Notes under the pieces: model-generated
Database searches by the model: none
Told to the model about the DNA's origin: nothing
The model's input: the letters and a program-made list of their open reading frames with translations, nothing else
Translations under genes and position numbers: made by a program
Assembly (NCBI GenBank): GCA_028622995.1
Contig: JAJQJQ010000038.1
Location: 1,178,001-1,242,000, forward strand
DNA length: 64,000 nucleotides
Source of the DNA: Panagrolaimus kolymaensis
Taxonomy: Eukaryota > Nematoda > Chromadorea > Rhabditida > Panagrolaimidae
Direction: 5' to 3'
Shown here: positions 48,301 to 60,600 of the stretch, one piece after another
Position numbering within the stretch: the stretch's first letter is position 1
Layout of the letters: every line of letters begins with the position of its first letter

Positions 48301-51300
48301 AAATGTTAATTTTTGATTTTTCAATGGGTTCATCAAAACTTCTTGGGGTAGCACGAAATATTAAATGTGGTTGCATATCGATGCTTATGATGCTCCTTCT
48401 TTTTCTCCTTTTTTGTATTCCATTGCCTTCAAAGTCTTTTTCAACTCCATCCTTTTCATTTTCTTCTTCACTTTCAGATTCATCTTCTTCTGAGAGTAAT
48501 TTTTGATGATTTCGAAATTCAGTGGATTTAAATGGTTCAATCAAATATGCGCCATCGGGTAATGCCAAAGTTCCAAACTAGAATAAAAAACATTGTTAAA
48601 AGTGCACTTTAATGTTATTTTTATTTCCTGAATTTTTTGTTTGCTTTTACATCTCAATGCCCCTCTCTCACTTTCATTTTTCCTGGATTTTTTTTTAAAT
48701 AGGAATTTCAAGCTCTTCTTTTTTTTTAACAAATAAGATTAAGTAGACCACGCAAAAAAAAAATTGAGTTATATTTTTTTATTTTGAGGAAGAACCCATC
48801 TTTTATGTTGTTGTTGTTGGACGTTGTTGCTTGTTTAAAAAACGATAATACAATTAGTTTTAATTTGGTTTAGTCCAAAAAAGAATTAAAACAAACTTTG
48901 ACCTTGTTTTTGTTTTAATTTTATTTTTTGTCTCAGAAGAGAATGTTTTTTTTGCGTTTGCAAAAAGGTCTTTAAAAAGTGACCAAAGCATAAACTTTGT
49001 GACCCTTGAGTTAAAAAATTTTTTCTTCTATTTTTGCAAACTCCCTCGCAAAAAATATGCAAAAAAGTAAGAAAGAAATATTTTTAGGATAAATCATTGG
49101 TGCGCAAAGAATAATAAAAGTATTGAAATTTGATATAAAAGTAAGTAACAAAAAGTTACAATTTTTTTAAATAAAAACTATATATTGTTTACAAAAATGC
49201 AAACAGTAACAAAAAAGAAAAGAAGAAGCTCATTCTTGCGCGTGGGTATTCATCATCTTCATTCCTGAAGTGAGTGATCCCCGTCTAATGTAAAGAATAG
49301 CTTTAATTCCTTTATTTTTTATATTTATGTTTGAATATAGAAATTTGAAGATATTTTATTTTTTGAATCATAGAACAAACGAAAAAATGAATGATATCAT
49401 ATTTATTCAAAAAATAGAAACTTTTAAAATTTAAATAAATAAAGAAAAAATCGCGGGATTGTTTTTATTTTCTTTTTTTTGGTCGCTGCATTGTTTCATA
49501 AATAATTTTTTTGTCGGCTTTTTTACACAACACCTTTCTTGTTTACATTTTTGTTTTGTCGGGAGAAGAAAAAAAGAAGATGTGAAGCTGTGTGTGAAAA
49601 AAGGGCAAAGGAACTAAAAACAAAATATCGATGATGATAAAAAAAAAAGACTGCTGCAAAAAATAAAAAAATGTAAATTGCATTCGAATTTGTTGCAGCT
49701 GCGGCAGCAATGTTATTTTTTTTAATATGCAAAAAAGAAAAAAAGAAAGGAAAACATCTTGCATTTGGCTATTTCTCTAATGTCCGAAACAAGTGGTACC
49801 AGAGTTAAACTAAACCAATAATAATAACCGGAACAAATTAAGGCAACGGGTGCCACATTAAAAAATAAAAAATATGCTCTAATAAAAAAACTACAGCTTT
49901 AAAACCCAAAAAAACCCCATAAAAAATAAATAGATAACCAAACATGAAAAAATGAACTTACAAGACCACCATGTTTTTCACAAAGATTAACCATTCCTTT
50001 TTCATCTGTACCATTCACGCTTGCAGTATACAGACAATTAGGTGATACCTTTGATAGCCTTGCATGAGTGGTTTCATCATTATCCATATATTGAATTAAT
50101 GGAATAACTTGACCATTTATAATATTATGATTTTTTCTAAACACACATTTTTTTAGTATGCAACTTAAAAATTTAAATATTTTTTAAATCTTACTTTGAT
50201 ATGGGTTTAGCAACTTGTTTCCATCGTTCAAAAAATACATTTAATTCTTTTTCTTTATGAATTATATCTTCTGATAAAGGATTATTAATAAAATCTGATT
50301 TTAATCGAAATGTACACGAATGTCCACATTGTTTAGCTAATCCAATAACTCTTGCGTTTGTTGGTGATTTTTGCCTCATATCTTCATTCCTTTCTTCTTC
50401 TTTATTTTGTATAAAACGCTTTTGCCGATGCCTCCTTATTTCATGAGCATTTAAATGCCATATAACTCCTTGATTTGGTTTCATTCCTTAAAAAATATAC
50501 ATTTATATATTTATTTATTGCTTTTATGTCTCATCTTTATCTATGTGTATTTTTTTATTTATCGTTTTAAAAGACATCTTTAATCATATTTTTTTTGCTC
50601 TAAAAAATGCATGTTTTTCTTCGTTTGAATAATTAATCAACAAAAAAATATTAAGACGGAATTCTAAAAATAGAGGCATTTTTTGTTGGTTAAACCCTTT
50701 GAACTGCCTGCCTTTTCAAAAAAAAAAGAATCTTTATTAACCACAGGAGGTCTCATTTTGCCCTTTTACTTGCAACCGAATTCTTTATAAAAAAAATTCT
50801 TTTGCATCTTCTTTTATAAATTCCATTAATGTAACAACAAAACAAATAACTGCCATTGTTTAATTTCTTTTTAAGTCTAATTACTCAAAAGAATATAATA
50901 AAAAAATTGAAATAGACTCGAACCGACACTGAACTGACTGACTATTCAAAAAAAATTATTAGATCATACATTCTATCTATTTTTGGCACATTTTTTTTTT
51001 GCATGGGATTTTTTTTCTTTTTCTTGGTTATCTACAATCATTTTTTTCCTTCAAAATACGCAAAAAGAATTCAAGAAGAAGTAAATAACGAAAAGAAAAG
51101 AAAGTTAGCAAAACCTTTGAGACAATAATAACCACCACCACGTCGTCTGCTACCAATCAAATAATAAAAAACCCAACAATGTTTAAGTAAGATAGTTTAT
51201 GTTGTTTGACTCTATTTTCTTTGCTTCTCCTCTTCTTCTGTGTGTTGTTAATGAAAGGGTTAAAAAAATAAGAAAGTAAAGAAGTAAATTTTGGGCGCTT

Positions 51301-54300
51301 AGCCAAAGTGATTGTTTCGGCTTTAGAGATCAAAAATGTTCTTCTCTCGCTTTTTTTCTTCTCTAAGCTAACTTCTTTTTCTTCTTCTAAAGCATTTGGC
51401 AAAAAAAAGAAGAAGTAAATCTAAGAGGTCGACTAGTATGACGCTTGTCTTCTACTTTTACTGATTGCGCTATTTCTGCATCGAATGAAGAAGAAGAAGT
51501 AAAAAAAAGGTTAACCACCGGCCAACAACAACATAACGGACGTGGTTGATGAATTCCATTCTCTTTTTTTTACCTGCGCAAAAAAAAAGAAGAAGAAAAG
51601 ACGCGGTTTTTTTTAGGTGTTTGTCAACTACTTAATACTCTTTTTCTTTTTTCTCTGGACACAAGCAAAGCAAAAAAGCAAGCAAGAATAAATGTTGATC
51701 TCCTCACAACCGACGACGATTCAAAAGGTTAAAATGTTTAAAGTTTACGTATGGAAAAATGGAAGAGGTAAAAAGAAAATAATGAGGGTTGGATCACAAA
51801 TTGAGACCGTTGGTTAGAGCTAAAAAAACTTAAGTGCCGTTCCTTCAATTTTTCTTCCTCAGAAAAAAACCATAGATGTGTTTGCGCACGTCACTGATGA
51901 TTTTTTTTTGATGAGAAAAAGCAATAAAAAAAGGTTACTAAAAACTTTTTTTAAGTTCTATTTTGTGTAGTACGAAATAAAAATTGAACTCAGAGAAATT
52001 AAACTAAACTAAACTAAGAAGCAAGTAAACATAAAAATCGCATAAAATACATAAATCAAAAAATGAGAGTCCATTTGAAAACTAAAAAATCTTTTTGATA
52101 AAAATCATATAATTTTCTTTTAAAATTATTACTGCATTTTCCTTGCTCTTTGTTAAAGTTTCTTTGTTTGTACCTCTTCCAAAAAATGTTAGGACTTTAC
52201 TAAAAAAAAGAAGAACAAAAAGGCATTAATAAATTTTAGTTTTTGTCCTAACCGTGAAGTTGGTTAGACAATACAGAGTAAGTGAAATGTAAAGTTAAGT
52301 TCTAACAACTAACAAAACAATGAAACAATGAATACAAAATAGGCTATGCAGTGAGGCTTCCATAATCCATACGAGACCATCAGAAAGCGCCATTTTGAAT
52401 GCTTCGTGTTGTCCGAGCCACAACACTCTTCTCCCTCCTATTTCAGCATTGCATCTTCATTCAGCATTGAGAATCTTGAGTTGCAGTGCCATCAGGATAA
52501 CGACGATTGGACGTTGGAACAAGAGGTTGAGTTCTTCTTTGAACAGGAGATTGTACAGCAGAACGAGCATGAAATTGTACAGAAGAACTAGCACGAGGTT
52601 GAACAGGAGAACTTGAACGAGATCTTACATCTTGAAGTACAGTGTCTGCAGGGAGACCACCAGATGAGAGTTGCTTTGTTGAAGCTTCTTTAAGTGTCTG
52701 CAGGGAGACCACCAGATGAGAATACATTGTTGAAGCTTCTTTAGCACGAACAAGTTGATTGAAACCTTCGATTTATTCCATAGAATCTTCTTTTTGAAGT
52801 CGAGCATATCAGTACCATTCATCAAGAGAATTCCATAGATTCTTTACCAAAGAATCTTCTTTGAGTTGGAGATGACCATAAACATGAGTAGCTGTAGAAT
52901 TAGCTTTATGTTGATACCATATCGACAGATGCACCATCTGTTCCTTCTCCTTCTTTTTGAAATGATGAAGATAGGGATCAGCGAACCATGGTAACATCGA
53001 AGAGGACCAGGAGTTGTTGTGATCGAAGTTTAACGACATGAGGATGTCCAGCAGAATTGCTTTTGAGTATAAAGCATAAATTTGATGTTCAGCTGCGATT
53101 GACAAGCGAAGTTGTTTCGTGTTGAGCAAGAGTCATACGAAGAGCATAATCAATCAGTTTTTTGAACACTATTGAATCCATTCAATATGTTGCAGCAGAT
53201 GAAATTGTCAGCTTATGACGATGAACAAATGTTTGATACCATTAGTTTGTAGGTTAAACCAAGTATTTAGACCATAAGTTCGAGCACCAGATGAACAATA
53301 GCATTGTGATCGAAATCCAGGAAAGAGCAATAGTTGAGGAACATTTGCGGTGGAGATCAGAACGAAGTAAAGTTGTAGCAAACTTTGATGAGGTCCAGGA
53401 ATGAGCATGAGTTGAGGAACAATTGCGATGGAGACCAGGACGAACTTCTTTAGCGACCATTGCAAGGTGAAGTCACCTATCTTCTTTAGCGACCATAGCA
53501 AGGTGAAGTAACCTATCTTCTTTAGCAACCATAGCAAGGTGAAGTAACCTATCTTCTTTAGCAACCATAGCAAGGTGAAGTAACCTATCTTCTTTAGCAA
53601 CCATAGCAAGGTGAAGTAACCTAAGCTTCTTTAGCAACCATAGCAAGGTGAAGTAACCTATCTTCTTTAGCAACCATAGCAAGGTGAAGTAACCTAAGCT
53701 TCTTTAGCGACCATAGCAAGGTGAGGTAACATGAACTTGAGATGATGAGGTTGGTGAACAGAGCCTCCATCCAGTTGAATTGTTGAATATCATCAGGAGA
53801 ACCTTCATCCATACGATCAATAGTTGAATCAAGCGAAGTTCCATTCCACGATCTGAGTTGCTATCATTCCATTTTAGCCTTTGGGCATGTGCAGTGACAA
53901 TGCTGAACCAAACGACCCAGGAAAGAGCATAATCGGCATGTTAGGACATCCGAACATCAGAAACAAGATAAGTAAAGCAGAGATACTTATTCAGGAGAAC
54001 ACCATTAGAACACGATAAGTAAAGCAGAGATACTTATTCATAAGAACATACCATTTCGAGATAATTATTCGCGAGATGAACACCATTTCGAGATAAATAA
54101 AGCAGAGATATTTATTCAGGAAATGAACATGGTGTTGGAACATAAACGATATCTGTAGATGAGATCATCGAACACTTGAGTTTACCATATTAGAACATAA
54201 GCGGTATCTGTAGATTAGATCACCAGAACTTGAGTTGACCATATTGCAGGAAGTTGAACGTATTGCAGGATAAGGTTGATCGTAGTTGTTGATCAGGAGA

Positions 54301-57300
54301 TGATGATGACATTGATCGAAGCAGGAGGACGACCAATATAAGAATGTTGAACCAGAGGACATGAAGATAAGCGCATTGACGAAGACATGTTGTGAGGAAA
54401 TCCATTTCCTTTAGCTTCGGCAGATATCCACATCTGCCTCTTCCTCTCCTTCTTCATTTCCAGTAGAGCGTTGACAAGCCCCTTCTCCTCCTTTTCTTTG
54501 AGATGAATAAGTTGGAGATTGACGAAACATTAAAGCATTGAAGAGTCGAGCAGTTTGCACATATTGACATAGTTCGTAACGTTTGCTTTTAACCATAGAA
54601 AACATAAGGGAAGAATACTTGAATTTCGATTAAGCTTCTCCATGAGCTATTCACGATAAGCACCATAGTATTTCGGAAGAACATCGAAAAGTTGTATCAG
54701 GATCATGTTCTTTGATTTCCACGTCTGAACTCAGGAACGTTGAGGACGTCTTGGAACATCAGCATAAGAACATACGAAGCATGAGCATAACCAGTTGAAT
54801 CATAATCAGCAGCATCGAAATCAGTAGGATATGAGCCTTTGAAATCCATTGTATTTTTGCACGGAAAAATCAGAAACGGAAGGATGGATGATTTTCGCAT
54901 CGGTATAATCATCGAAAACGGCAGGGTATTGGCATCAGAAGTATTACATGATCATGAGAATATTACGAGCATAAGTTTCCACCTTCCAAGCATGTTGAGA
55001 AGTCATCAGAGATTCTTTTATCACCGTAATGAGGGTGTTGGTAAATCGAAACCTTGTGAATCTTTTCGCACAGCACCAGTGTGACTAACAGGCAAAGCAC
55101 AAGCCCCAGGAAATCATACGACGTAGTAATAACATTGCTTTTGGATCAAAAAGCATAAAATCAGTATCTTTACCATGAGCTTATCCATAAGCTTACCCAG
55201 AAATACGACCAGTGCTTTTAGAGCTGAAAGCATAAACTATTTGAGTTGTTCTTCATCAGCGTCTTCCTTCTCCCTCTTCTTTTGTTGGAACAGAAGCAGC
55301 AGCAGGAGTTGGAGTAGTTGGAATTGTTGCGGAAGTTGATACCAGGATGAGGAGCACTAGAAATATCAGCAAACCAAGAACAGAAACATCAGATTTTGAA
55401 TCAAAAATCTGGGAAAAGTTGAGCACGAGCAGAGCAGCGCAGAATTGAATCACTCGTCACCAGTTTGTCCTAACCGTGAAGTTGGTTAGACAATACAGAG
55501 TAAGTGAAATGTAAAGTTAAGTTCTAACAACTAACAAAACAATGAAACAATGAATACAAAATAGGCTATGCAGTGAGGCTTCCATAATCCATACGAGACC
55601 ATCAGAAAGCGCCATTTTGAATGCTTCGTGTTGTCCGAGCCACAACAGTTTTTAATGACTTTCTAAAGTGAAAGCGTGAAAAATTATTTTTTTCCTTTTT
55701 TTAAATCCTTAAACTTTTTTGGCCTTTTTTAAAAAACAAACAAATTTATGACCCGGTCAACAATGAGAAGAGAGCATTTAGCTTTTTTAAAATTATTTTT
55801 GGCTCCACCACATTATTCAGTTGTTTTTTTTTATGGTTGCGTGCAATTTTCGCTCAAATATATCACAAAAGAAAAAGAAAAAAGTGAACACTAGACTAAA
55901 TGGCGACGCAATCATCCCAATCGTTTTTTCTTCTTCTTCTTCTTGGCCAACAACGTCGTTACCAAGTCCTTCTTCAACTATTTTTTTAAAACTAGAGCCG
56001 CCGTGAAGTCTCTCTTTTACTCTCTCGTTATTGCGCAGTGGAGAGAAGATAGATCCCAAAAGACCAATGACGTCGAAAAAAAATTCAAAATTTACAAAAA
56101 GCACTAATTATCTTTTTTTAAGAAGCTTATAAGTTTAAATTTTTTGATATTGTTAAAAAAATCAGCATAACTCAATTTTTATGGAAAAATATATACCTCG
56201 ATGATAGTGATATTGTTATCCTAACTAAGCCTAGTCAACGAAGTTTAATGGAAAAAAAATAACAACATCAACAAATAAAAAAGTTAAGTTTAAAATCGAC
56301 CGACCTCTCGAAACGTAATCCGATTTTGTTGTTGTTATTTTTTTCTTTCCTTAATCGTCCGTCTTTAACATCGTTTTTTTATTTTTTTAAAACTAAACCC
56401 ACTTGTCATCCTATCATATATACTAATCCTCATCTCACTTACTTACTTTTTTTCTCGCAAAAAAAAATCGAATTAAATAAAACTCTATAGTAAAAGTTAG
56501 TCGTCGGCTATCAATATATGTATGTATTCAAAAAAAAAGCTCCCCTCCACTACCACCTTCTTTTTTAAAAATGTTGCGAAGAAAGGAAAGCAAGCGTGTT
56601 TGCACAATACAAAGAAGAAGAAAAAAATCTCACACACGCAATCCTTTTTTTCCCTTTATTTTCAATGATGACTAAATTTTTTTATTGTGTCTCCTGTACT
56701 TTTTTGGCATAACATTGCTTTTAAAACAATTGGTCAAGAAAAAAAATGGAAGCATAAAAAAAACAAAAGAGTCAAAGCAAAAAAAACGTAAAAGACTTTT
56801 CTTTTATTTTATTTTTTCTGTGGTCATCGTCAGTCAGTATGAGAACCGTTTGACATCAATCCTTTCTTTTTTTCCATGGGAACTAAGAAAACATGAAAAA
56901 TGGTCAAAGAATATTTTTTTGACAAGAAAATAAACAAAGCCAATAATTTTTGCAAATTTTGCATCCATAAAAGAAAGTTAATAAACTTTACTATAAAAAC
57001 TGGCTATTTCCATAAAAAATAAACAGATGTCTTTTAAAAATGGCAATAAAATAAAAAAAAATACATTTTTTGCCCTTGTAAAAAGTAATGGTTTTTATTT
57101 AAAAAAGGAAAAACAATAAAAACTAACCAGAATAAATAGTTTTTGGTGCCAATGCTGGAATTTTTGATTTTGATGCTGTTGTTGAATGTTTTTTTGAAAG
57201 AGATGGAGAATGAGAATTTACTATTGTCGATGATGAATAAAATGTAAATAAACAAAATATAAACGCTAATAATATAATTCCAATAAAAATTAAATAAAAT

Positions 57301-57626
57301 GGTTTAAATAAAATTATTTTACTATCCCAAATTTTTCCATTTAAAATTGAAGAAGGCGACGAGGATGTTTGATGGCATTTTTCTGAATTTATATAATGCC
57401 TTTTTTCTTGGTGATGATGGTCTTCATCTTCGTCATTTTTCTTTTTCTCACAAGAACCATTGTTGTTGATTTTATTTTGACGAACTCTTCTCAAATTATT
57501 ATTTGAACTTGGTTCAGTCGATGATGAAGTGCTTGCAAGATTCATAATATCTTCTTCTCCGTTTTCTTCAACTTTTTTGTTGTTGTTATTGTTGGAATTA
57601 GGATATATCAGTTGCCTTTCCACCAT
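39337..57626 (-). CDS. gon-1: ADAMTS metalloprotease GON-1 (22 exons, 2313 aa)
   Basis: Exons: 57128-57626, 50195-50486, 49962-50136, 48223-48577, 47214-47571, 46277-47154, 45866-46219, 45493-45810, 45300-45423, 44584-45212, 44016-44539, 43331-43969, 42965-43255, 41544-41714, 41298-41471, 41080-41250, 40599-40811, 40364-40499, 39966-40152, 39768-39904, 39514-39710, 39337-39456. A hydrophobic segment (about 104-130) precedes the propeptide, a furin-like RSRR site (about 445-448), a reprolysin domain with zinc-binding HELGHIFNIPHD (about 599-610), disintegrin-like and Cys-rich parts, a spacer, about 18 thrombospondin type-1 repeats and the GON domain (CGGFCGECAPDQYKG near the end). GON-1 remodels basement membrane for gonad and pharynx shaping. 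Exon 1 was assigned because its end (APKTIYSG) and phase fit exon 2 and the known N-terminal layout. The start is the ATG at 57626. Intron 1 (6641 bp) holds an LTR element. Confidence 0.95.
40188..40323. repeat. Composite inverted repeat in gon-1 intron 18
   Basis: ATCTTTTGTCAAAATT (40249-40264) and its exact complement (40308-40323) form a 16-bp stem with a 43-base loop. TTTTCTGTAAT (40188-40198) and its complement (40278-40288) make a second, interleaved 11-bp pair. A third, imperfect pair surrounds GTGTTAATTA at 40199. Together they fill most of this 211-bp intron. It may be a small MITE-derived insertion or a folded intron RNA. Confidence 0.5.
41715..42964 (-). other. gon-1 intron 13, with an open extension of exon 13 at its 5' end
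   Basis: This 1250-bp intron separates two thrombospondin-repeat exons. From the exon 13 donor (GTACGT) the reading frame stays open into the intron to a stop at 42785-42787. The extension is rich in His, Asn and Arg (for example HNNYNRHNSHYHHYDLQ, then RRSRRH). The remainder is AT-rich with nothing recognised. Confidence 0.6.
47572..48222 (-). other. gon-1 intron 4
   Basis: The intron is 651 bp and ends just before the exon carrying the furin-like RSRR site. I see no exon or element in it. Confidence 0.8.
48578..49961 (-). other. gon-1 intron 3
   Basis: The intron is 1384 bp, AT-rich, with no coding potential I can support and no recognised element. It interrupts the propeptide coding region. 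Confidence 0.8.
52239..52243. repeat. Left target-site duplication GTTTT
   Basis: GTTTT directly precedes the left LTR and matches the 5 bases after the right LTR (55648-55652). Five-base duplications are typical of LTR-retrotransposon integration. In T-rich sequence a 5-base match is only modest evidence alone. Confidence 0.8.
52244..52425 (-). repeat. Left LTR (3' LTR of the minus-strand element), 182 bp
   Basis: It starts TGTCCTAACC and ends CCACAACA. I compared it along its length with 55466-55647 and saw no difference. Since both LTRs are copied from one template at insertion, identity points to recent integration or gene conversion. Confidence 0.95.
52426..52439 (-). other. Polypurine tract of the LTR element
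   Basis: On the minus strand this reads AGGAGGGAGAAGAG and abuts the TG of the 3' LTR. That is where reverse transcription primes plus-strand synthesis. Its position fixes the element's orientation. Confidence 0.85.
52643..52742. repeat. 51-bp tandem duplication in the LTR element
   Basis: The segment starting GTGTCTGCAGGGAGACCACC occurs at 52643 and 52694, with GAAGCTTCTT at the end of each copy. It shows two near-identical copies. The duplication adds to the repeat-built interior. Confidence 0.8.
53445..53734 (-). repeat. 36-bp tandem repeat, 8 copies, in the LTR element
   Basis: The unit contains CTTCTTTAGCAACCATAGCA on the plus strand. Copies start at 53445, 53481, 53517, 53553, 53589, 53626, 53662 and 53699. 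Two intervals (before 53626 and before 53699) are 37 bp. On the minus strand one frame reads AMVAKEDRLLHL and another LLWLLKKIGYFT, and the 37-bp intervals shift the frame. This argues against a constrained protein repeat. Confidence 0.9.
53967..54247. repeat. Further tandem duplications in the LTR element
   Basis: GATAAGTAAAGCAGAGATAC occurs at 53967 and 54014 (47 bp apart), with a diverged third copy at about 54092. A second duplication begins GAACATAAACGATATCTGTA at 54138 and recurs with changes at 54193 (55 bp apart). The copies are diverged, so they predate the insertion. Confidence 0.7.
55445..55462 (-). other. Primer-binding site of the LTR element
   Basis: On the minus strand this reads TGGTGACGAGTGATTCAA, three bases inside the 5' LTR. 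TGG pairs with a tRNA 3' CCA. The implied tRNA end, GAATCACTCGTCACCA, has the right layout (T-stem, 7-base acceptor strand, discriminator A, CCA). I cannot name the tRNA without the genome's tRNA set. Confidence 0.7.
55466..55647 (-). repeat. Right LTR (5' LTR of the minus-strand element), 182 bp
   Basis: It starts TGTCCTAACC and ends CCACAACA on the plus strand, and appears identical to 52244-52425. As the 5' LTR it should contain the element's promoter. I see no clear TATA box to mark. Confidence 0.95.
55648..55652. repeat. Right target-site duplication GTTTT
   Basis: This directly follows the right LTR and matches 52239-52243. Confidence 0.8.
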
Positions 57627-60600
57627 AACTAATAGCCTATTATTTAGATGCAATTGAATTTTTAATCAAAAAATGCATCATTGCTTTTTGAAAATAATAT
57701 TAAAATTTATAATTTGAAAATATAAAATTTTTTGAACCAAGCGGCTTTAATCAAAAAATACAAAGCTGCAACTTCTTTTCTTTTTTTGGTTAATTCAGGA
57801 ATGTTTGTTTGAGGAAGTTTAAAAAATTATAAATTGTTGCAACAGAATTAAAATAAAATAAAATAAAAAATAGTCCACAAAATAAAACTAAATTAAAACG
57901 TTTAAGAATCCACAACAAAAATAAAATTAATTAAAGATAAATATTTTTGTGGATGGAAAGTTGGCAGTGAGCAAAATAAACGGCAGTATAAAAAAATGAG
58001 GATAGTAAAAGAAAAGGGTTTCTGCCTTTTTTATTCCCTTTCTTTCTATTTTTGCTACAAAAAAATATATCTAATAGATGATAAAATACTAATAACAATA
58101 ACAACCTGAAAAAAATGCAATGGTTTAAAAAAAATATAGGTGTAAATTTTACAAAAAAAAAATTTTATATAACACGCGAAATAGACAATTTTATGAAACG
58201 ATAGCTTTGCTTCCTTGCTGTTTGCTGCTTATTGAGACAATAATAACGAACGAATATTAAATAATATTAGAGAGGAAAAAAGAACGGGGGCAAAAAAAAA
58301 AGAGAGAGAAATAAAGAAACAGGTCAATGAATATTATAATTTTTTTCCGCTTAATTTATCTATCAAAAATTTATTAAAACATTTATATAAATAAAAAATA
58401 AAAAAGAATGGTTTATTTAAAAAAAAAATTTTCTTGATATCATGAATGTTTTTTGTTGTTTAAAAAAATCCTCAAAAAAATTCACTCTTTTTTTTGTGTC
58501 TCTCTTGAACTGGCCAAGAGAAGTAAGTTAAAAACGAAAAAGTGGGCGGGGTTAAAAAAGAGTCTGAAAAAATAAAATGTACGCAAACGAGACAAATAAA
58601 AAAATATTTTTTTGCGCAAGCATAAAAAAATGTGGCCTTAAACTCCTTCAGACATATTTAAGAGGGCGAGAGAGAAACAAAAGAAGAAAAAAATAAATAA
58701 AACGACGACGATGAACTCCTCCCTCAAAAAGAATGAGAAGAAGCAAGCCTCTGGCATTTAAAAAGAAAAAAAATCGGATCGGGCGCAACTGCGAAAAAAA
58801 CGGCGCAGAAGAAAAAACTATCAAAATTCTTGCATAAAATTTATTTTATTTTTTTGTTATAAAAAATTGTTTGGAAAAAAAGTAAAAAATCGCTAGACAC
58901 AGGTGTGAGAAAAAAAATTTATTGCTTAAAAAAAGAAATTAAGATTGTTTTATAAAAAAATTATTATTGCAAGTGTGAAAACACTCTTTCATATTTTTTT
59001 TATTTTAGCAAAAAAAGCAATAAAACTTTGATGGGATGACCTTAGTTTTTTTTTTCATACCAAAAGAAAAAAATGACCAAAGCAAACAAACACCAACAAC
59101 AACGACGCCTGCAAAAATAAAAAAAGCTATCAAAAAAAGTTATAACTTTTTGATAGGCTTAAAAACACAAAACATGACTATACAGACTCCTAGTGCCCAG
59201 ACACGACTCCTAGTGCCAAACCCAAATATAATATTTTTACGTAGGGTTTTCATGTTGAAATATTTTTTTTGTCTAATCCACCAAGCTTTAACTACGCAAA
59301 AGCCCCTCAAAAAAAGATAAATTAAATCTTAAAAGAAAAAGAATAAAAAAACTAATTTAAAAAACAAAATAAATGTGTAAAATAAAATAAATCTATTTAT
59401 TAGTTAAACTTTTTCTTTCAACCATTGAGCTAAAAAATAAATTAAAATTAAGTCATTTGAATTTGCACCAAAATGAAGAGTGAGAAAAAAATATGGCAAC
59501 TCAGTCAATCACCAAATGGCCGCTGTCCACTCGGTACTACTTTTTTACTTTCTCTCCCATCACTTTTTTATTTTTTTTCAAACTGAAAAAAAGTGATTGA
59601 ACCGCTGTGATACTACTACTACGACGACGCTACGTTGAGCAATTTGGCCACGACGGTTATTTTTTTCTTCAAGACAGCTGCTGTGTCCAAAAATTATTTT
59701 TATTTATGCCCTTGTGGGTGGATATAGTTGAGTAGACAACTACTATCACAGCGGCGACGTACCTTTGGTCAGTCGCCGTCATTCAAGTTTGTCAACTGTG
59801 AAAAAAAAAACAAAGTGAAGGTGAAAACTTTTGTTTTTGAGATAAAAAAAATATCAGCGAAAGGAGACACTTTTTTTGTTTGTAAAATTTTTTAAGCCAA
59901 AAATAAAAAAAACTAATAGGGTCAGAAAAAATTTGTCTCACTTTCTTTTTAAAAAAAGAGGCGATTGTCGTTTTACATAGAAAAAATCAAAAAAAAAATT
60001 GCAACTTTTTTTAGTCTAAAGTTTTTTGTGCTTTAACACAAGCAAGAAAAAACGAGAGAGTGAAAGGCAGAGAGAGGCAAAAAAAAAAACCACTCAACAA
60101 TAAAAGTATTAAAACTGTTCTGATTATATATGATAAGAACGAGAAAAAAAAGAAGAAGAAAGAATGAGAAAGAAAAACTATTATTCCATAAAAAAAATAT
60201 AAAAATAATGAATGGTGGTAGAGAAATCAAAACGAACATTATTTTTGTCTATCGGTAGCTATGTCGTCTGGTAATTAAAAGTCTAAAACTGGGCATCTCA
60301 TAAAACTAACAAACAAGCAAAATTATACTATGACTGATAACAAAAGACAAAAAAGAAAGCTGTAAAATGAGCCAAATTAGGGAAGGTAAAAAATAGCTTG
60401 AAATAAAGAGATAATGGAAGTACAGTTGCATATTATTTACTTGCAAGGTGTTTTTTTTATATTTATTTTTTATGGCTTTCAGGGATTATTACGTGTTATA
60501 ATTTTGAAACAATTTCGGAGATTCGCGCAAGCCGGCACGAAAAAGGCCTAAAAGACAAAAAAATAAATCCGTTTGGTTCAATAAAAAAAATCAAAACGGA

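Follow-up and report, generated by a model that had tools for sequence, protein, structure and literature searches.

A probably recent insertion of a non-autonomous Ty3/gypsy-derived long terminal repeat retrotransposon in an intron of gon-1 in Panagrolaimus kolymaensis

Panagrolaimus kolymaensis is a triploid parthenogen. A 64,000-bp stretch of its genome assembly (GCA_028622995.1, contig JAJQJQ010000038.1, positions 1,178,001 to 1,242,000; referred to here as the window, with positions counted from its first letter) harbors a long terminal repeat (LTR) retrotransposon of 3404 bp within the developmental gene gon-1. It very probably represents a recent insertion of a non-autonomous element derived from Ty3/gypsy. 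As a new member of a known element class, it provides a recent and clear example of a well-understood genomic parasite. The non-coding LTR family and its likely Ty3/gypsy driver form a matched pair in one triploid assembly, and the three haplotypes allow insertions to be scored as filled or empty, so that recent transposition can be tested directly in a parthenogenetic nematode. In addition, a clean deletion is present in both LTRs, and one of the three gon-1 alleles is marked for an allele-specific expression test.

The two LTRs have TG...CA ends, are identical at 182 of 182 sites, enclose an interior of 3040 bp, and are flanked by a GTTTT target site duplication (TSD) (Table 1). The polypurine tract (PPT) adjoins the LTR at 52425 and the region of the primer binding site (PBS) adjoins the LTR at 55466, placing the element on the minus strand. 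From 55465 downwards, the interior begins with AACTGGTGACGAG, i.e., AAC followed by the PBS TGGTGACGAG. These repeats, the TSD, and a correctly placed PBS and PPT had been described in the first-pass annotation of the window, and all are present, the PBS and PPT on the minus strand. A perfect 182-bp repeat combined with a TSD, a PBS, a PPT, and two precise empty homeologous sites cannot be due to chance; the interval 52244–55647 is confirmed as a complete LTR element.

The PBS is complementary to tRNA-Leu, and past the first 10 nt the pairing extends only if gaps are allowed. The tRNA 3′-end pattern occurs at 27 places in the genome, 24 of which are identical (GTTCGAATCCCACTCTCGTCA), and a reversed-pattern control occurs at none. 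ARAGORN identifies tRNA-Leu (AAG or TAG) in five of the six loci read among these places. A role for tRNA-Trp as the primer was discarded: a conserved stretch used as query gave no match, and the 3′-end pattern then gave tRNA-Leu.

A gon-1 exon query identifies homeologs on contigs C33 (97%) and C25 (96%), besides the window contig, C37, and the small contig C265. Both homeologs align with the window sequence to the left and to the right of the insertion, and the element itself is precisely absent from them; the joined window flanks read AATTTTAGTTTTTAATGAC, compared with AATTTTAGCTTTTAATGAC at the empty site on C33. Around the site, the haplotypes differ by 4–7% substitutions. Because the LTRs are identical and the homeologs are empty, the insertion is later than the divergence of the haplotypes. 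An insertion after the origin of parthenogenesis is not thereby proven, since the insertion might already have been segregating in a sexual parental population. Contig C265 (L009, 14000–23999) was considered as a second copy of the element and dropped: its alignment with window positions 48858–58854 spans 10 kb and contains 29 gap positions but no substitution, and a difference consisting of gaps only indicates the window locus itself. The contig is most likely redundant.

Like the element, gon-1 is encoded on the minus strand. Exons of the gene map both upstream and downstream of the insertion, the upstream one on weaker evidence, and the element thus resides within an intron, in sense orientation. 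The gap between the flanking mapped exons is 6629 bp with the element and 3220 bp without it, in agreement with the earlier statement that the insertion doubles the intron. The sense orientation and the deletion shared by both LTRs are additions to that account.

Table 1. Coordinates of the element, its components, the flanking gon-1 exons, and the coding relative. Positions are those of the window unless a contig is given.
Feature	Position	Strand	Evidence or remark
Whole non-autonomous LTR element	52244..55647	minus	LTR pair, TSD, empty homeologous sites
5′ LTR, 182 bp, TG...CA	55466..55647	minus	No difference from 3′ LTR
3′ LTR, 182 bp	52244..52425	minus	No difference from 5′ LTR
TSD GTTTT, left	52239..52243	.	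C33 and C25 empty sites have the target once, one base changed
TSD GTTTT, right	55648..55652	.	Read in window
PBS TGGTGACGAG, 10 nt	55453..55462	minus	Complement of tRNA-Leu 3′ end plus CCA
PPT AGGAGGGAGAAGAG	52426..52439	minus	Adjoins 3′ LTR; string also before 3′ LTR of the coding relative
Leader in common with coding relative, ~76%	55375..55465	minus	Interior positions 1–91
Remnant of pol C-terminal tail	52444..52637	minus	60% over 57 aa, then 87% over 15 aa
125 bp, 82% similar to part of gag-protease open reading frame of repeat L030	54706..54830	minus	Weak protein match, E 9e-4
36-bp tandem repeat in non-coding interior	53445..53734	.	Repeat read in window
TTGTCT at 105-bp deletion junction, 5′ LTR	55488..55493	minus	Comparison with C26 LTR
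TTGTCT at 105-bp deletion junction, 3′ LTR	52266..52271	minus	Comparison with C26 LTR
Next mapped gon-1 coding exon(s), downstream of element	49950..50496	minus	tblastn with nematode GON-1 proteins
Probable gon-1 N-terminal exon, upstream of element	57126..57665	minus	Homeolog conservation; weak Panagrellus GON-1 match
Coding relative (L014)	C48 ~1556545–1561639		Identical 283-bp LTRs, GAAAC duplication

The element belongs to a family with further copies in the assembly (265.8 Mb, 807 contigs). At a threshold of E ≤ 0.001 and with 40 of 49 candidates scored, the window LTR has 40 matches, four of which are the window locus and its redundant contig. The examination of surrounding sequence covered 29 matches, of which 2 lie in the window, 26 in 20 regions, and 1 on C10; the matches of the coding relatives on C26 and C3 are among the remaining 11. 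A query comprising 2766 of the 3040 interior bases has its best stretches on C26 (99%, whole query), C6 (97% and 96%, two stretches), and C23 (92% over positions 527–1949, with other stretches at 74% and 90%), while partial interior copies occur on C47, C5, C12, C10, C16, C40, C13, and elsewhere. Complete copies number four: those in the window and on C26, C6, and C23. Aligned end to end with the window interior, the latter three agree at 99.6%, 99.1%, and 94.3% of aligned bases, respectively. Differences within the LTR pairs amount to 0/182 (window), 0/287 (C26), 0/287 (C6), and 0/289 (C23), pooling to 0/1045 with a 95% upper bound of approximately 0.3%.

Among the 14 single-LTR places examined, three have interior attached and 11 have none. 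Of these 11, five carry a full 5-bp duplication and one a duplication matching at four of five bases; two others match over the four bases seen, and three have no duplication or are unreadable. The joined flanks of the C26 copy match two other places (C12, 90%, and C13, 88%), as do those of the C23 copy (C104, 99%, and C66, 98%), and all four places are empty. On the basis of the flank match, these places are presumably homeologs; the C23-copy flanks are closer to their empty places than the haplotypes are to one another at gon-1. Together, the further complete copies, each with an identical LTR pair, the partial copies, and the solo LTRs define a mobile non-coding family. Both the recency of the insertion and the existence of such a family had been anticipated by the first-pass annotation, and both are borne out: identical LTR pairs are found in four complete copies, with empty homeologous sites at the window copy and at two others.

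Several other arrangements accompany the family. The C6 copy is flanked (L011, C6 ~6570198 and ~6573716) by a many-copy repeat with TTGTCGGTCCAGACCGACAA motifs, the copies of which often stand in facing pairs; this repeat accounts for 93 of 107 joined-flank matches, short ones counted. L029 and places on C10, C16, and C40 have the same match boundaries, with a related 5′ LTR plus interior. These pieces look as if they had spread inside something larger, and the one that was read has no 3′ LTR within ~4.5 kb. At L013 (C12:3691781–3694441), two LTRs lie 2.5 kb apart, each between the same PPT and the same flank, an arrangement suggestive of an element end duplicated in tandem, not of a complete element.

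No gag or pol domain is found at the Pfam cut-off among the eight of 20 minus-strand open reading frames (ORFs) of at least 50 aa that were compared; three of the eight give chance-level matches (E 0.09–0.18). Many insertions and deletions between copies have lengths that are not multiples of three, breaking the reading frames. On these two grounds, a coding interior is rejected. The interior had been described as having no gag-pol domains; the lack of coding capacity is borne out, and the description requires correction in that a remnant of the pol tail is retained. Beyond the leader, the pol tail, and the 125-bp segment similar to L030, the interior is mostly sequence without a recognised source. 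The repeat L030 (C62:388300–393300) itself holds gag and aspartyl-protease-like ORFs in two units, which are spaced 2578 bp from each other and show 100% identity across 2052 bp. Scattered pieces of the interior recur in a decayed repeat, L031 (C44:544300–547800), in which a stretch similar to the integrase end of the coding relative can also be made out by eye.

The LTRs of the other complete copies are 287 bp (C26 and C6) and 289 bp (C23) in length, as opposed to 182 bp in the window. The 182-bp LTR is a deleted form found at this locus only. At the 182 bases common to both, the window and C26 LTRs are identical; the window LTR is missing C26 positions 161–265, with TTGTCT at both edges. The missing 105 bp holds the sole AATAAA and the sole ATTAAA of the C26 LTR. 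Two AATAAA are present in the window interior, and the window copy is therefore not free of poly(A)-type signals. When the genome is searched for the deletion junction with up to two mismatches, only C37 and C265 are returned. Reverse transcription builds the two LTRs from a single R-U5 and a single U3, such that a single slippage event before the strand transfers would delete the same segment in both. The deletion most likely arose by template slippage during the making of the window insertion.

The first-pass annotation had postulated an unseen driver and had suggested a search for a relative with the same LTR and primer site and a pol gene. A relative with similar ends is present on C48 in the same assembly; the proposed driver has a candidate and is not unseen. 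The gag-pol frame of this relative is open over 1402 aa, and its successive pieces match the Pfam families DUF7083, zinc knuckle, aspartyl protease, RVT_1, RNase H, H2C2, and rve; for the final piece there is no match. Among solved structures, its reverse transcriptase (RT) is closest to 4ol8 (named reverse transcriptase/RNase H), presumably from Ty3, and then to 7q5b (named Ty3-G Gag-Pol). An RT search identifies further relatives on C26 (99%, 1406 aa open) and C3 (96%, 1006 aa open), both of which also match in the pol-tail and PPT stretch (100%). RT families 79–80% identical to that of C48 occur on C18, C47, C4, C7, C12, C3, and C60, none of them beside an LTR match. For the C48 element, two other places match across the joined flanks, C41 (93%) and C50 (90%), both empty, which indicates that the coding family has also moved recently.

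The LTR of the non-coding C26 copy agrees with that of C48 at 89.4% of aligned bases, gaps set aside; over the last 187 bp the similarity to C48 is 82%, and the PBS of the window element differs from that of C48 by one base in the first ten. Both the LTR and the residual pol of the window element are thus homologous to a Ty3/gypsy family; the element itself lacks the coding capacity of an autonomous Ty3/gypsy element, which the C48 element has from protease to integrase. The common LTR, leader, PBS start, PPT, and pol tail, together with the open gag-pol frame, make the C48 family a driver candidate, and a family of the C48 type is the likely driver of the non-coding one.

Several points weigh against this picture. 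BLAST identity, with gaps, between the LTRs of the coding group and the window LTR is only 72–77%, and interior positions 92–2829 give only short matches to C48, the best being 22–26 bp. The coding family is not the immediate parent of the window element. Among the coding relatives, the LTR was read for C48; those on C26 and C3 were identified by search only. The homeologs of the C6 copy cannot be told apart or scored, since this copy lies within a many-copy repeat, and its ends show a 3-bp ATG overlap in place of a clean 5-bp duplication. Finally, the slippage step rests on one locus, and a lost source copy with the deletion would look alike.

It is hypothesized that the element RNA starts in the LTR and is packaged into particles made by the gag-pol of a coding relative, where reverse transcription would be primed by tRNA-Leu and followed by integration in trans. 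While the window copy was made, reverse transcriptase would have slipped between two TTGTCT repeats, leaving both new LTRs shortened by 105 bp and devoid of the LTR AATAAA. The window copy would now probably be a poor donor, residing in sense within one of the three gon-1 copies, in a long N-terminal intron. A more far-reaching scenario, in which the insertion, its siblings, and the driver moved after the three haplotypes met and the window copy was tolerated in sense because the LTR poly(A) signal had been deleted, is speculative and rather unlikely.

The identical deletion in both LTRs would also be expected in any offspring of a deleted source copy. The window insertion could accordingly descend from a small short-LTR subfamily, the source of which is lost or present in other isolates. 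This explanation is possible but doubtful: the deletion junction is confined to C37 and the redundant C265, and the nearest sibling, the C26 copy, has 287-bp LTRs despite an interior that is 99.6% alike. Gene conversion can erase LTR differences, and an old insertion with LTRs homogenised in this manner would resemble a recent one. Such an origin is very improbable in view of the two empty homeologs, which are 4–7% diverged around the site, and of identical LTR pairs in three more complete copies at other places.

The 182-bp segment could also have been duplicated by an assembly artefact, and a redundant contig of the same locus does exist. However, the repeats flank 3 kb and are accompanied by a target duplication and empty homeologous sites, sibling copies show the same architecture, and the published HiFi reads, with a mean of 14,425 bp according to PMC10374039, are longer than the element; an artefact is hardly credible. 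An equally remote assignment is that to BEL/Pao in place of Ty3/gypsy. It was suggested by the PBS, which starts with TGGTGAC, together with the 5-bp duplication, and was dropped because the RT of the C48 element is near Ty3-G and no Pao-type domain is found in the six pieces of that element scanned with Pfam. Thus, a recent insertion of a non-autonomous Ty3/gypsy derivative is retained as the preferred explanation.

The window element resembles Ty3/gypsy elements, such as its C48 relative and Cer1 of Caenorhabditis elegans, in its LTR ends, 5-bp duplication, tRNA primer site, PPT, and pol tail remnant, and differs from them in that no gag/pol domains are found and the interior is mostly unrelated non-coding sequence. 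Large retrotransposon derivatives (LARDs) have multi-kilobase LTRs, exceed 4 kb in total, and contain a conserved non-coding interior that replaces gag-pol. The window family likewise has a conserved non-coding interior within a mobile family; however, its LTRs are 182–289 bp in complete copies, its interiors are rearranged between copies, and its size falls short of that of LARDs. For Cer1, a gene-disrupting insertion with identical LTRs that is polymorphic among strains is described in PMC3315495; the PBS of Cer1 is reported to fit tRNA-Pro, in contrast to tRNA-Leu in the window element.

Terminal-repeat retrotransposons in miniature (TRIMs), as described in PMC4717578, share with the window element the LTRs, a 4–6 bp duplication, and the absence of coding capacity; TRIMs are under ~1 kb, whereas the window element measures 3404 bp. 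According to the same source, a related larger element is known for 11 of 289 plant TRIM subfamilies (LTR identity 79–98%), four of these 11 larger elements being putatively autonomous, and unpublished nematode TRIMs are mentioned. The TRIM and LARD categories are already in use for the nematode Meloidogyne incognita (PMC8685519). Retrozymes are also non-autonomous LTR retrotransposons (PMC4918200) and are distinguished by a hammerhead ribozyme; no ribozyme is found with Rfam in window positions 51500–56500 (E up to 1) or in L010 (gathering cut-off). The family works like TRIMs or LARDs, fits the size definition of neither, and is best called a non-autonomous Ty3/gypsy derivative. In PMC10879605, which includes a repeat annotation of Panagrolaimus strain PS1159, the term "LTR retrotransposon" appears in reference titles.

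With regard to the host gene, further exons are mapped below the downstream exon(s) listed in Table 1. The upstream segment, 57126–57665, is probably the gon-1 N-terminal exon. It matches the N terminus of Panagrellus GON-1 weakly (26% over 134 aa) and gives only sub-cut-off matches in Pfam, and it ranks among the most conserved stretches between the gon-1 homeologs. The top GON-1 match of the window gene is from Panagrolaimus sp. PS1159, with 75% identity over 61% of the query.

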